Shown in pieces: positions 35,988 to 42,285 of a DNA stretch of 49,068 bases. Under the pieces are notes generated by a model. It worked only from the letters and a program-made list of their open reading frames with translations. It did no database searches and was not told where the DNA came from. Within the stretch, counting starts at the first letter, position 1; each line of letters begins with the position of its first letter. Position numbers and translations under genes: made by a program. Source of the stretch: an uncultured Bacilli bacterium (GTDB lineage: Bacteria; Bacillota_I; Bacilli_A; RFN20; CAG-826); contig CALWAS010000010.1 of the NCBI GenBank assembly GCA_944375905.1, positions 1 through 49,068 on the forward strand. The letters are read 5' to 3'.

Positions 35988-38855
35988 ATGGATCAAACTG
36001 ACGCCAAGCGCTATATCGTGGTCGAGGGAGCGAGGGAAAACAATCTCAAGAACGTCTCCCTTTCGATCCCGAAGGATACTCTTACGGTCTTCACCGGGCT
36101 TTCGGGCTCGGGGAAGTCGACCCTGGCCTTCGATACCATTTACGCGGAAGGGCAACGCCGCTACGTGGAAAGCCTTTCCCCCTATGCCCGGCAATTCCTC
36201 GGCGGGGTCGACAAGCCGGACGTCGATAGCATCGAAGGGCTTTCTCCCGCCATCTCGATCGACCAGAAGACGACCTCGCACAACCCGCGTTCCACCGTCG
36301 GGACGGTTACCGAGATCTACGATTTCCTTCGGCTTCTCTTCGCGAGGGTCGGGGTGCCGTACTGTCCGCATCACCATGTCCCGATTACCGCGACGACCCC
36401 GGTGGAAATGGGCAAGGCCGTCCTTTCCTACCCCGAAGGCAGCAAGCTCATCTTGAGTGCCCCGATCGTCAAACACGAGAAGGGAACGCACAAAGACACC
36501 ATCGAGCGTCTTCGCGGCCGCGGATTCACGCGCCTTAGAGTCGACGGGGAAGACTATCTCATCGAAGAAGTTCCCGAACTCGACAAGAACGTCCGCCACG
36601 ACATCGACGTCATCGTCGACCGCCTCATCGTGAGGCCCGGCATCGAGTCGCGGGTCAACGACGACGTCGAGCTTGCCATCGACGAATCGCATGGCTATCT
36701 CAAGGTTAGGGACGGAGAAGGCAATGAACGCCTTCTTTCCAGCAAGCACTCATGCCCGATTTGCGGCTTCTCGGTCCCGGAACTCGAGCCCCGGCTCTTC
36801 TCCTTCAATGCGCCGCTCGGCTATTGCCCTTCCTGCAAGGGATTAGGCATCTCGAGGACGGTTAGCGAGGAGCTCCTCGTTCCCGATCCGAGCAAGTCGA
36901 TCAACCAAGGCTGCATCCGCTTTTATAGGAACGTCGTCGGCACGATGAACCTCGATTGGCAGAATTTCGAATGTCTGCTCGATTACTACCATGTCCGGAA
37001 GGACGTTCCCTGGAAGGAACTTACCAAAAAGGAAAAGGACATCGTCTTGAACGGCAGCGACCGCCCGATCAAACGGACGATCGTTTCGAGCGGCGGGAAC
37101 ACGATGCACCCCTCGGGCCGGATCGAGGGGGTAAAGGAAAAGATCGAGCGGCTCTACCTCGAAACCAAGAGCAAATGGATGCTCGATTACTACGAGTCCT
37201 TCATGAAGGACGACGTTTGCCCGAAATGCCGCGGGGCTAGGCTCAACGAAGCCGCCCTTTCCGTTTACGTGGCCGGCAAGAACATCAAGGAAGCGACCGA
37301 TCTGACGGTTGATCGACTCCTTTTCTATGTTTCGGAAGTCCGTTCATCGCTCAAGGAGAGCGAGCGGAAGATCGCCGAGCTCGTCCTTAAGGAAATCGAG
37401 GGACGGGCCAAGTTCCTCGTCGATGTCGGGCTCGATTACCTTACCCTCTCGCGCCTCGCGATGACCCTTTCGGGCGGCGAGGCCCAGCGGATTCGCCTAG
37501 CCACGCAGATCGGCAGCCGCCTGACCGGTGTGCTCTACGTCCTCGACGAGCCTTCGATCGGCCTTCACCAACGCGACAACGCGAAGCTCATCGCGACGCT
37601 CAAGGAAATGCGCGATCTCGGCAATACCCTGATCGTCGTCGAACACGACGAGGAGACGATAAGGAATGCCGACTACATCGTCGACATCGGCCCCGGGGCC
37701 GGCGTCCATGGCGGCGAGGTCGTGGCGGCCGGGTCTTTAAGCGACATCGAAAGCGCCCCGCGTTCGGTAACCGGGGACTACCTCGCCGGACGCAAGTTCA
37801 TCTCAGTCCCGCGGCAGCGGAGGAAGGGGAACGGGAAGAAGCTCGTCCTCAAGGGGTGCCGCTGCCATAACCTCAAGAACGTCGATGTCGAGTTCCCGCT
37901 CGGCAAGTTCATCGTCGTTACCGGCGTCTCCGGTTCCGGGAAGAGCTCGCTCATCAACGAAACGCTGGCCAAAGCCCTTCAAAAGGAGGTCAACGGAACC
38001 GACGTAACCCCGGGCGAATATAGGGAAATCAAAGGCAAAACCTATGTGGATAAGCTGATAAACGTGACGCAGGAGCCAATCGGAAGGACCCCGAGGAGCA
38101 ATCCGGCTACCTATACCGGCGTCTTCGACGACATCCGCGCCCTTTTTGCCGAAACGCCCGAGGCCCGCGAGCGCGGCTACGACAAAGGCCGCTTCTCGTT
38201 CAACGTGCCCGGAGGCCGCTGCGAAAAGTGCGGCGGTGCCGGCGTCACCTACGTCCCGATGAATTTCCTCCCCGATGTCTATGTCAAATGCGACGAGTGC
38301 GAGGGCAAGCGCTACAACGAGGAGACTCTGCGCTGCCTCTACAAGGGAAAGTCCATTTACGATGTTTTGGAGATGCGCTGCGAGGAGGCACTGGATTTCT
38401 TTTCGGCCCGTCCCCAGATCGCAAGGAAGATAAAGACCCTCGTCGACGTCGGACTTGGCTACGTGAAGCTCGGGCAGCCGGCCACGACTCTCTCGGGCGG
38501 GGAGGCGCAGCGGGTCAAGCTCGCGAGTGAACTTCAGAAGCGTCCGACGGGGAAGAGCGTCTACATTCTCGACGAGCCGTCGACCGGCCTTCATAGCGAC
38601 GACGTAAAGCGCCTCATTTCGGTCCTCGATGCCATCGTCGACCATGGCGACACCGTCATCGTCATCGAGCACAACCTCGACATTATCAAGGTTGCCGACT
38701 ACATCATCGACCTCGGCCCCGAGGGCGGCGAAAAGGGCGGGACGATCGTGGCGGAGGGGACGCCCGAGCAGGTAAGCGAGGTCAAGGAAAGCTACACCGG
38801 GCGCTACCTCAAGGAGGTGCTCTCCCGAGCAGTGGAAAAAGGGCAGCTTGCCTAG
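35988..38855 (+). CDS. uvrA: Excinuclease ABC subunit A
   Basis: UvrA is the damage-sensing ATPase of nucleotide excision repair that loads UvrB. The 955-residue protein has two ABC modules: Walker [16 protein letters not shown] (near 36) and [14 protein letters not shown] (near 647), two LSGGEAQR signatures, and zinc modules [14 protein letters not shown] with CPSCKGLG, and [12 protein letters not shown] with [10 protein letters not shown]. The conserved start [14 protein letters not shown] is present. The ATG directly follows a -10 box, suggesting a leaderless transcript. uvrB is not adjacent. Confidence 0.98.
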
Positions 38856-38861
38856 TAGAAT
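38833..38861 (+). promoter_or_regulatory. Probable leaderless promoter of lgt
   Basis: TGGAAA (38833-38838), a 17-base spacer and TAGAAT (38856-38861) end exactly 7 bases before the ATG at 38869, which places the expected transcription start on the start codon. The elements lie within the 3' end of uvrA. Confidence 0.6.
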
Positions 38862-38868
38862 TCGTTTT

Positions 38869-40767
38869 ATGTTAGTTCCAAGCATCGTTACGCTCGTCGC
38901 CGGCATCCTCGTGAGCGCTATCGGCGGTTATTTGTTCTATTCGAAAGTGGCCGCCTTCAATAAGGCATCGAGCGTCCTTGCGGCCACGAAGAAGGACATC
39001 GTTCAAGGAGGGATCGGCCTTCTGACGCTGGGCGCGGGCTTCATTCTTCTTTTCCTCACCCCGTTCCTGAACTTCCCGGAATGGGCCAGCTTGGAAGTCC
39101 ATCCGGAAGAAAGCGTCTTCGCCGGGCAGGCGATCAATTACGGCCTCTACCTTTCGAGCGCCCTCATCGGAAGCTTCTTCTTCGGAATCTCATCGGCCAT
39201 CGTCGTCGGCGGTCTTTCCATTCTCATGAAGAAGGAAAAGATGGACCCTTTCCAGAAAAAGGTCCTCAAAACCGTCTTCTATTGCGCGATTCCGGTCCTT
39301 GTTCTCTCCTTCATCCTCGGCTCGAGCGGATTCGGGCCCTATCTCACCTACCCATTGATCAACGGAATCGGCTTCGGCGAAGCCGGCATCTATTGGCTCA
39401 GGGTCGGGGAGCGGGGCGACGGCCTCCATATCACCTGGTATGCCATGTGTTACCTCCTCGGCGTCGCGGTTTGCTACATCATCTGCGACCATGCGATGTA
39501 CAAGCGCTATGGCAAACACGGCATCATCGATACCTTGGTTCTCGTCGCCTTTCCGGCCGGGATCATCGGCGGCCGCATCTGGTACGTGGTCGGCAACTGG
39601 GAACGCGAATTCGCCAGTCGGCCTTGGTATAGCGTATTCGAAATCTGGAATGGCGGCCTCACGATCCTAGGCGGGGCGGCAGCCGGCATCATCGTCGGCT
39701 ACATATTCATGCGGGTCAGGAGGAAATACGTCGACCCGCGCTGGGCCGTCGACGTCATCGTCCCGACCATTCTCCTTGCCCAGTTCGTCGGGCGGTGGGG
39801 CAATTTCTTCAACTGCGAAGTCTATGGCGTCGCGACCGACGTTAGCGGCTGGTCGTTCCTCCCCAATTGGCTTCTCGAGCAAATGCACATTTCCAATAGC
39901 GGAAGCCCGCTTCCGGCCGGAGAGATCTACGTCCCGCTTTTCCTCATCGAGGGCGTCATCAACCTCGTCGGCTATTTCGTGATTGCCAAAGGCCTTCCGG
40001 CCCTCTTCAAGAAGAAGCTTGTCCCCGGCGATCTCGGCGCTGCCTATTTCGTTTGGTACGGGCTCGTCAGGATGATCATGGAACCGCTTCGCGACACCAA
40101 TTTCAACATGGGCACCGACAATGCTTGGAGCGTCGTCAACTCGATTGCCTACATTCTCATCGGCCTCGCGATCTTTCTCCTCCTCCATCTCCACGACGGC
40201 TACAAGGCCAAGGGAAGCTTCCTCCCATACGCGATCAGCGCGGCCGCGATTTCCTTCGTGGCCCTCTTCATGCCGCTTCTTCCTTCGATCAACGTCGTCG
40301 ATGGAAAGGAAGTCGTTTCCTATCTAGGCTATGAGGTCGTTTTCTCTGGTAACGCCCCGGTATTCATGGCCGCCTTCGTGCTCATGGCCGTTTCTTTCGT
40401 TCTTTTCATCGCGTCCCTCATCATGGTCGTCCTCGAGAAGAAGGGAAAATTGACCAAGAACTTTGCCTTCCTGAGCCTTGGAAAAGGCAAAGGGAACGCC
40501 GATCCGCTTCCCCTTTCGTCCGTCGTTGGCTACCTCGCCGCTCCCTTCGCCCTTCTTTCGGGCATCCTTTATTTCGCCGGGACGACGGCGCTTGGCCCCC
40601 TTTTCCTCGTTGGAAGCGAGGCGTCGGCCAACCTATCGTACGGGTTCTCCCTCGCGGCGATTCTATTGATCGTCTCCTCGCTCGTTTCCTTGAGCGAGCT
40701 GCTTGGGCGCTATGACCGCAACAAGGCCATAAGGCGGGAGGGCGAGACTTCTGGCGCGACCCTTTGA
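38869..40767 (+). CDS. lgt: Oversized prolipoprotein diacylglyceryl transferase
   Basis: Lgt transfers diacylglycerol from phosphatidylglycerol to the lipobox Cys of prelipoproteins, needed by the six lipoproteins in this window. The family core runs from about residue 185 (LHITWYAMCYLLG) through GGLTILGGAAAGI and the signature GRWGNFFNCEVYG (near 307) to YGLVRMIMEPLRDTNF (near 400). The protein has 632 residues against the usual 260-300: about 180 extra N-terminal residues with several helices and about 190 extra C-terminal residues with further helices. I prefer ATG 38869 over the in-frame ATG 38848 because of the promoter; neither has an SD. Confidence 0.9.
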   Translation: MLVPSIVTLVAGILVSAIGGYLFYSKVAAFNKASSVLAATKKDIVQGGIGLLTLGAGFILLFLTPFLNFPEWASLEVHPEESVFAGQAINYGLYLSSALIGSFFFGISSAIVVGGLSILMKKEKMDPFQKKVLKTVFYCAIPVLVLSFILGSSGFGPYLTYPLINGIGFGEAGIYWLRVGERGDGLHITWYAMCYLLGVAVCYIICDHAMYKRYGKHGIIDTLVLVAFPAGIIGGRIWYVVGNWEREFASRPWYSVFEIWNGGLTILGGAAAGIIVGYIFMRVRRKYVDPRWAVDVIVPTILLAQFVGRWGNFFNCEVYGVATDVSGWSFLPNWLLEQMHISNSGSPLPAGEIYVPLFLIEGVINLVGYFVIAKGLPALFKKKLVPGDLGAAYFVWYGLVRMIMEPLRDTNFNMGTDNAWSVVNSIAYILIGLAIFLLLHLHDGYKAKGSFLPYAISAAAISFVALFMPLLPSINVVDGKEVVSYLGYEVVFSGNAPVFMAAFVLMAVSFVLFIASLIMVVLEKKGKLTKNFAFLSLGKGKGNADPLPLSSVVGYLAAPFALLSGILYFAGTTALGPLFLVGSEASANLSYGFSLAAILLIVSSLVSLSELLGRYDRNKAIRREGETSGATL

Positions 40768-41407
40768 AAATAGGCTCCTCGTCCTCGACATGGACGGAAC
40801 CTCGCTCGACAGCGAGCTTCTCGTCGTCGTGAGCTGGGTAGAGCTTTACCGCCGCTTTGCCCCAGGAAGGAAGCTATCGCTCATGGATTTGGAGGCTTTT
40901 TCCGGCCCTCCGCTCCTCGATTCCTGCAAAAAGGCCTTTCCCGACCTCGATCCCGAGATGGTGAAAAACGCCTACATCGAGACAAGCGACCCGCTCTATC
41001 CCCTTTATGCCACTCTTTTCCCGTACGAAAAAGAGGCATTGGCCGAGATAAAGAAAATGGGAGCCAAGCTTGCCATCAATACCAACAAACTGCGAAAAGA
41101 AGCCATCATGGCCCTCGAGGAGCAGGGAATTTCGTCCCTTTTCGACGCGGTCGTCGCCGGAGGCGATGCACCGATGAAGCCCGATCCTACCGGGGTTCTT
41201 TCCATCCTTTCCGAGTTTACGATAAAGAAGGAAGACGCGGTTTACCTAGGCGATTCCCGCTATGACTATTTGACGGTGAAAAACGCCGGCATTCCCTTCT
41301 TTGCCGTCGATTTCTATCCGCGCCGCTTCTTGGAAGAAGAGAAGCCTGAGCGCTTCGTTTCGTCCTATCGAGAGCTTTCGTCTATACTTTCCTCGTGGTG
41401 GAATTAG
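40751..41407 (+). CDS. HAD-superfamily phosphatase, probable CTG start
   Basis: A beta-phosphoglucomutase/Gph-like haloacid-dehalogenase hydrolase; the substrate is unknown. Motif I is LLVLDMDGTSLDSE. Its nucleophile Asp (codon 40787) lies just before the first ATG (40790), so a protein starting there would lack the catalytic residue. Upstream in frame to the stop at 40730 there is no ATG, GTG or TTG, but a CTG at 40751 sits 9 bases after GGGAGGG (40736-40742). From there the product has 218 residues. Motif II-type (LAINTNK), motif III KPDP and motif IV YLGDSRYDYLTVKNAGI are intact. It overlaps lgt by 17 bases and trxB by 13. Confidence 0.8.
   Translation: MARPFENRLLVLDMDGTSLDSELLVVVSWVELYRRFAPGRKLSLMDLEAFSGPPLLDSCKKAFPDLDPEMVKNAYIETSDPLYPLYATLFPYEKEALAEIKKMGAKLAINTNKLRKEAIMALEEQGISSLFDAVVAGGDAPMKPDPTGVLSILSEFTIKKEDAVYLGDSRYDYLTVKNAGIPFFAVDFYPRRFLEEEKPERFVSSYRELSSILSSWWN
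41383..41388 (+). promoter_or_regulatory. -10 box before trxB-like gene
   Basis: TATACT ends 6 bases before the first of two tandem GTG codons (41395, 41398); no SD and no good -35 are visible. This is a likely leaderless start inside the end of the HAD gene. Confidence 0.5.
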
Positions 41408-42285
41408 AAGCAGCGATCGTCGGGGCCGGGCCGGCCGGCCTTGCGGCAGCCCTGTATCTCAAAAGGGCCGGCATTTCCTTCGTCCTTCTCGACAAGATGG
41501 GGCCGGGCGGAAAGCTAAACAACATCCATGAGATAGCCAACATGCCGGGCTTCTTGCCCATTTCGGGCCTGAAGCTAGCCAACGAGCTATACGCTTCGGT
41601 CAAGGAAGCGGGCGTCGATTTTTCCTATGGGGAGGTAGTCAGGATTTCGCGCGGCGGAAGGGGCTTCATCGTCGAGACCGACGTCGAAACCTACTCCGTA
41701 TATGGAGTCGTCGTGGCCACCGGCTTCGTTTACGAGGCCGTCGTCAAGGGAGAAAAGGAGCTCCGCGGCCAGGGAATCTCGTATTGCGCGACGTGCGACG
41801 GGCCGATCTACCGCGGGAAGGAAACGCTCGTCTACGGGGAAGGGAACCGGGCCGAGGAAGAGGCCGATTACCTAAGCGGAATCTGCCCCAAAGTGTATTT
41901 CGTTAGCAAATCCCGCTCCCTTTCCCTCAAAAAGCCGAATGTCGTTCCGGTGCTCGATAGCGAGATCGTCGCCTTCGAGAAAAGGGATGGCCTGGTAGTC
42001 GCGCATATAAAGGGCCCCGAAGGCGAAAGGGAAATCGGGGCGAGCGCCTGCTTTCCTCTATATGGGGAAAGAAGCGCCCTTACATTCCTTTCGGGCCTCG
42101 AGGTCAAAGAGGAGCGGGGCTATCTCCTCGTCGACGAAAGGATGAAGACGTCCGTCGATGGTCTCTTCGCCGCCGGGGACATCGTGAAGAAGGGTTTGCG
42201 CCAAGTCGTCACCGCCCTTTCCGACGGGGCCGTTGCCGCGACCTCCCTCGCTTCCTACGTTCGGGGGAAAAGGAAGAATGGATAA
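41395..42285 (+). CDS. trxB: Thioredoxin-reductase-like flavoprotein
   Basis: A FAD-dependent pyridine-nucleotide disulfide oxidoreductase. The 296-residue protein has the FAD motif AAIVGAGPAGLAAALYLKRA, the redox-active pair in SYCATCDG (Cys131, Cys134), and the C-terminal FAD motif VDGLFAAGDIVKKGLRQVVT. The second nucleotide-binding site is unusual: GEGNRAEEEA replaces GGGDSAxEEA, and the HRR that reads the NADPH phosphate is replaced by VSKSRS. It may therefore use NADH or another donor. Start GTG 41395 or 41398. It overlaps rapZ by 8 bases. The position before rapZ-whiA follows the Firmicutes trxB-rapZ-yvcK-whiA order. Confidence 0.87.
   Translation: MVELEAAIVGAGPAGLAAALYLKRAGISFVLLDKMGPGGKLNNIHEIANMPGFLPISGLKLANELYASVKEAGVDFSYGEVVRISRGGRGFIVETDVETYSVYGVVVATGFVYEAVVKGEKELRGQGISYCATCDGPIYRGKETLVYGEGNRAEEEADYLSGICPKVYFVSKSRSLSLKKPNVVPVLDSEIVAFEKRDGLVVAHIKGPEGEREIGASACFPLYGERSALTFLSGLEVKEERGYLLVDERMKTSVDGLFAAGDIVKKGLRQVVTALSDGAVAATSLASYVRGKRKNG

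Follow-up and report, generated by a model that had tools for sequence, protein, structure and literature searches.

CTG start codons are usually left out of gene prediction. According to PMC11497404, CUG yields 0.86% of the output of AUG in Escherichia coli and accounts for 0.024% of bacterial start codons. A natural example, a low-level internal CTG start, is described for a Salmonella rhs element in PMC7043789. In Caulobacter, a CUG preceded by a Shine-Dalgarno (SD) sequence in dnaA forms initiation complexes in vitro but is unused in vivo (PMC8443254). By analogy, the latter is a warning case that would speak against CTG initiation at the locus reported here.

We analyzed a window of 49,068 nucleotides, which is the whole stretch of DNA under study, from a draft genome of 27 contigs (label G000); all coordinates are forward-strand positions within it. 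Our data suggest that a gene for a HAD phosphatase, which overlaps the end of lgt, starts at a CTG at 40751, and we give this reading a probability of roughly 0.85. As with natural CTG starts in other bacteria (PMC7043789, and PMC11497404 for their general frequency), this gene would have a CTG start codon and a low expected output. It differs from them in that its CTG recurs across five species, all belonging to an uncultured genus, in overlapping lgt, and in encoding a metabolic-type enzyme. Among the papers listed by our literature search on CTG/CUG starts in bacteria and on a conserved Lgt/HAD CUG start, none concerned this gene. CTG starts are a known rarity, of which the HAD gene is a new, comparatively supported, predicted case.

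The HAD reading frame and its start region

All features described here lie on the forward strand. From the CTG (40751..40753), the HAD gene extends to a TAG stop codon (40751..41407) and encodes 218 amino acids. The frame is closed upstream by an in-frame TAA (40730..40732), followed by GGC GGG AGG GCG AGA CTT CTG(40751) GCG CGA CCC TTT GAA and, from there on, AAT AGG CTC CTC GTC CTC GAC(40787) ATG(40790) GAC. The preliminary description had held that the frame is open back to this TAA and has no ATG, GTG, or TTG before 40790, and our reading confirmed this base for base. From the upstream TAA to the aspartate codon, the frame also contains no other CTG, ATT, ATC, or ATA. The first ATG (40790..40792) encodes the methionine of DMDGT and, as had been claimed, falls inside the DxD motif, after the codon of the first aspartate (40787..40789), the nucleophile in the HAD family. 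DMDGT fits the DxDxT pattern with both aspartates, but to carry it in full the product must be initiated before 40787; initiation at the ATG would delete the nucleophile. The window frame therefore holds no usual start codon able to give a complete HAD protein.

Assignment of the product to the HAD family also held, with a match to PF13419 (HAD_2) of 105.1 bits against a cut-off of 23.8, and alignments agree with it. In a profile comparison, the solved structures nearest to it were 2yy6 and 2nyv, which are named phosphoglycolate phosphatases. The best NCBIfam match is the pyrophosphatase PpaX (NF009804); we did not assign this identity because the score of 84.5 bits is well below the cut-off of 218. 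We therefore describe the product as a predicted HAD_2-type hydrolase. The gene order lgt-ppaX is found in Bacillus, and the window resembles it in that the HAD gene lies behind lgt.

The lgt gene (38848..40767) encodes a prolipoprotein diacylglyceryl transferase whose N-terminal part is long; its first listed start, a TTG at 38848, is a candidate. It scores 152 bits with TIGR00544 (cut-off 118.9) and 155 bits with PF01790. Its stop codon, TGA, occupies 40765-40767, so that the HAD gene counted from the CTG overlaps lgt by 17 bases. On the other side, the next gene (41395..42285) begins with a GTG that overlaps the HAD stop codon and encodes a thioredoxin-reductase-like protein (TIGR01292, 232 bits, below the cut-off of 343). 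Separately, we observed elsewhere (L156:6604-9234) a single ORF of 876 amino acids that joins an Orn/Lys/Arg decarboxylase (PF01276) and a peptidyl-arginine-deiminase-type domain (PF04371).

The SD sequence GGGAGGG (40736..40742) lies inside lgt. It had been called well spaced with respect to the CTG, and this was borne out, since nine bases separate GGAGG (40737-40741) from the CTG and the predicted energy is -12.2 kcal/mol. SD energies were calculated as duplexes with an assumed 16S tail sequence and were compared with 3000 random window positions. Only 1.0% of these positions were as good as the CTG at 40751, and none of the 12 CTG trinucleotides in the approximately 1.5 kb upstream matched its energy. 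The ATG at 40790, at -2.4 kcal/mol and lacking an SD sequence, was equalled by 68% of the random positions.

Start codons and conservation in related genomes

Homologues of the HAD protein were found in 36 of 37 genomes of the genus. We analyzed the best 20 of these 36, one per genome, with E <= 1e-30; the remaining 17 genomes (16 with weaker matches and one without a match) lie outside the start-codon counts. All 20 orthologues are encoded directly behind an ORF matching the Lgt of the window. In all five members of the close clade (G000, G023, G033, G034, and G030), a CTG precedes the first aspartate by exactly 12 codons, and the same GGGAGG stands before this CTG in the four other species. 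SD energies at this CTG are -11.2 to -11.4 kcal/mol in these four (-11.2 to -12.2 with the window included), while the ATG of DMDGT reaches -1.1 to -1.8 kcal/mol in them. Among the listed candidate starts, the CTG has the strongest SD near the aspartate in all five species.

A usual start codon at the position used by other orthologues is absent from all five clade members. The other 15 orthologues of the genus have ATG (14) or GTG (1) at 7-12 codons, counted by eye, before the same aspartate, and in G035 an ATG stands exactly at -12 codons, the place of the CTG of the clade. Thus, none of the relatives compared starts at the equivalent of 40790. The four close relatives are separate MAG records in GTDB release 220, of which CALVSB010000030.1 is from an uncultured Bacilli bacterium and CASFWS010000038.1, CASFVT010000018.1, and CASEWT010000027.1 are from uncultured Firmicutes, with names suggesting a single project. 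A further search of genome contigs returned the same four genomes, and a search of viral contigs for more relatives gave no match. The HAD proteins of the four species are 61-65% identical to that of the window, with the frame intact. All nine aligned sequences share D13 and D15 of DxDxT motif I, and L9, L10, L12, and D13, which lead into the motif, are invariant in all five clade members.

We asked how much of this conservation might belong to lgt. Since G030 and G034 have almost the same HAD protein (99% identity), these two genomes were counted as one, leaving four distinct lineages whose Lgt proteins are 65-87% identical and whose lgt third positions agree at 55-64%. The final 25 sense codons of lgt hold 72 trinucleotides, 7 of which are shared by all four lineages: five overlap within CGGGAGG, one is AAC, and one is the CTG. 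TTTGA, which spans the lgt stop codon, is likewise invariant in the clade. The Lgt residues encoded across the CTG differ between lineages (S-G, S-V, A-E, and S-V), and the Lgt protein therefore makes no obvious demand for those three bases. CTGs in the same phase of lgt occur at eight places in at least one lineage, and only that at the proposed HAD start is kept in all four; the other out-of-frame phase has CTGs at 16 places, of which 3 are conserved in every lineage. Same-phase trinucleotides of any kind are invariant at 107 of 496 places over the whole of lgt and at 3 of 24 within the last 25 codons, where two of the three lie in the SD. Viewed from the HAD protein, only column 1 of its 21 invariant leucine columns is CTG throughout, and CTG makes up 10 of the 130 other leucine codons there; in 136 long ORFs of the window genome, it makes up 9.7% of leucine codons.

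Part of the conservation of the CTG and SD could be lgt's own, since both lie in lgt codons, and with so few lineages the conservation of the CTG by itself is suggestive and not overwhelming. Taken together with the SD and with the lack of any other start in the window, it makes a convincing case, at the level of sequence comparison, for a CTG start. We propose that the initiator tRNA would begin HAD translation at the CTG at 40751, and that the SD within the last lgt codons would capture ribosomes, in part those that have just terminated at the lgt TGA, 11 bases downstream of the CTG. Because CTG pairs poorly at its first position, output would stay low and sensitive to IF3. The expected result is the full HAD enzyme (MARPFENRLLVLDMDGT...) at a small level coupled to lgt.

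Possible frameshifting at the lgt end and other alternatives

The alternative that survives best, although we consider it unlikely, is that the HAD protein arises through a prfB-like +1 frameshift at the end of lgt, yielding an Lgt-HAD fusion beside plain Lgt. The final CTT codon of lgt and its stop codon, CTT TGA (40762..40767), form a possible slip site like that of prfB, where CTT TGA is followed by the new frame; a +1 slip at CTT, followed by GAA, enters the HAD frame exactly. The lgt gene ends in CTT TGA in four of the five species and in GTT TGA at the same place in G033, and the invariance of TTTGA would agree with a slip as well. Moreover, prfB of the clade itself carries CTT TGA C in all five genomes, and the slip is therefore presumably used in these cells if prfB works there as it does elsewhere. 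In-frame Lgt-HAD fusions are found in other genera of the family, with both Pfam domains in all three ORFs scanned (661-721 amino acids; G079, G081, and G119), and open frames of at least 650 amino acids are present in 5 of the 111 genomes with a match.

Three points argue against frameshifting as the source of the enzyme. Programmed frameshifting in prfB involves an SD at a short distance before the CTT slip codon. In the window, an SD at this distance is missing; 19 bases separate the end of GGGAGGG from CTT, as would be expected for initiation at the CTG rather than for a slip of the prfB type. GTT, which G033 has at the slip position, is a poorer slip site than CTT. Finally, frameshifting leaves the shared CTG unexplained. 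A bare AGG does lie two bases before the slip codon in G023, G034, and G030.

CTG initiation and frameshifting could coexist. It is conceivable, though we regard it as quite unlikely, that besides the CTG start the CTT TGA of lgt is a second programmed +1 site, so that a membrane-bound Lgt-HAD fusion would rise when RF2 is scarce, and that other genera of the family fixed such fusions in-frame. Two further observations concern these genes. Lgt and HAD form one ORF with both Pfam domains at L149:981-2966, L150:1872-3857, and L146:2463-4628, of which two are from species of genus g7 and the third is from genus g17, and G080 looks the same by eye. In prfB of the clade (L052-L056), GGTGA stands a few bases before CTT TGA C; the usual upstream element of prfB is AGGGGG.

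It appears highly improbable that starts differ by species, with the CTG incidental in some of them and another unusual codon used in the window. Usual start codons in the open frame of the four relatives lie far upstream or at -4 codons: in G033, a TTG stands at -4 codons from the aspartate (-5.6 kcal/mol), in G023 an ATG lies at -25 codons (-5.9 kcal/mol), and G034 and G030 have an ATG at -85 codons (-6.2 and -3.1 kcal/mol, respectively). The SD energies of the TTG in G033 and the ATG in G023 are moderate and give this idea some substance, but the CTG has the strongest SD near the aspartate in every species, and the window frame offers no other near-cognate codon of the kinds searched that could take its place.

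Initiation at the ATG at 40790, giving a HAD-like protein without the nucleophile, has in its favor that no usual start codon precedes this ATG in the frame; it is implausible in the extreme given its SD energy, the invariant residues that precede the motif in the clade, and the start upstream of the aspartate in all 15 other orthologues. Equally hard to credit is an assembly error or a pseudogene, in which a usual start was lost by a base error or by decay: the window genome is a draft, but the HAD frame is intact and the same CTG and SD recur in four other genomes. An indel that hides a junction to an upstream ATG, which the preliminary description had left to be excluded, is very unlikely, because four separate MAG records share the arrangement and each would need to contain the same error.

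Start codon use in the genome and meaning for the enzyme

We questioned whether the lineage uses CTG starts more generally. In a sample of 394,368 bases (approximately one third of the window genome) with 255 gene-like ORFs, CTGs with an SD energy of -9 kcal/mol or lower near ORF starts were no more common than other codons (3 of 44 compared to 267 of 4311, the latter being codons other than ATG, GTG, TTG, CTG, ATT, ATC, and ATA). For two of the three strong-SD CTGs, a GTG or ATG that follows within one or two codons can share the SD, which leaves the HAD gene alone. These data point to an isolated case rather than to a different start code, and we rejected lineage-wide CTG use, or a relaxed start code, for this 394-kb sample. 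We looked at six of the further ORFs flagged for an ATT, ATC, or ATA with a strong SD or for having no near start; five contain a Pfam domain, each with a usual start codon before the domain, and the sixth has no Pfam match. The coding-potential scans were crude, and most of their top hits look like antisense shadow ORFs.

The initiator tRNA of the genus has the anticodon arm TCAGG CCCATAA CCTGA (L138-L144; G030, G023, G034, G029, G035, G031, and G032), in which, by numbering and usual bases that we partly assume, A29-U41 replaces the usual G29-C41 and C33 replaces U33. A pattern allowing both forms found CAGGCCCATAACCTGAAGG in 25 and CAGGCTCATAACCTGAAGG in 1 of 220 family genomes; the usual initiator form was found in none of the 220, and 194, including G000, had no match of any kind. 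We rejected a relaxed initiator tRNA as a sufficient cause of the CTG start: the initiator was not found in G000, and ATG or GTG is retained in the 15 other genus orthologues, so that an unusual initiator tRNA alone does not explain the CTG.

A near-cognate start with a strong SD is also seen in infC of the clade, which apparently starts at ATC behind AGGAGG (L048-L051; G033, G034, G030, and G023), and an in-frame TTG just before this SD could mislead gene callers. We found infC in four of the five clade genomes and not in G000, possibly owing to an assembly gap. A near-cognate infC start is expected to be sensitive to IF3, as in E. coli infC. The unusual start of infC is a known and widespread case, unlike the CTG of the HAD gene.

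Most likely, the CTG start sets a low level of the HAD enzyme that is coupled to lgt. Gene finding that leaves CTG aside would remove a residue that the enzyme needs, and a draft annotation could in this way make a catalytic enzyme look inactive. With support from across species and not from one annotation, the HAD gene may offer a natural example of why a cell keeps a start codon that, by the E. coli figure, gives less than 1% of the output of AUG.
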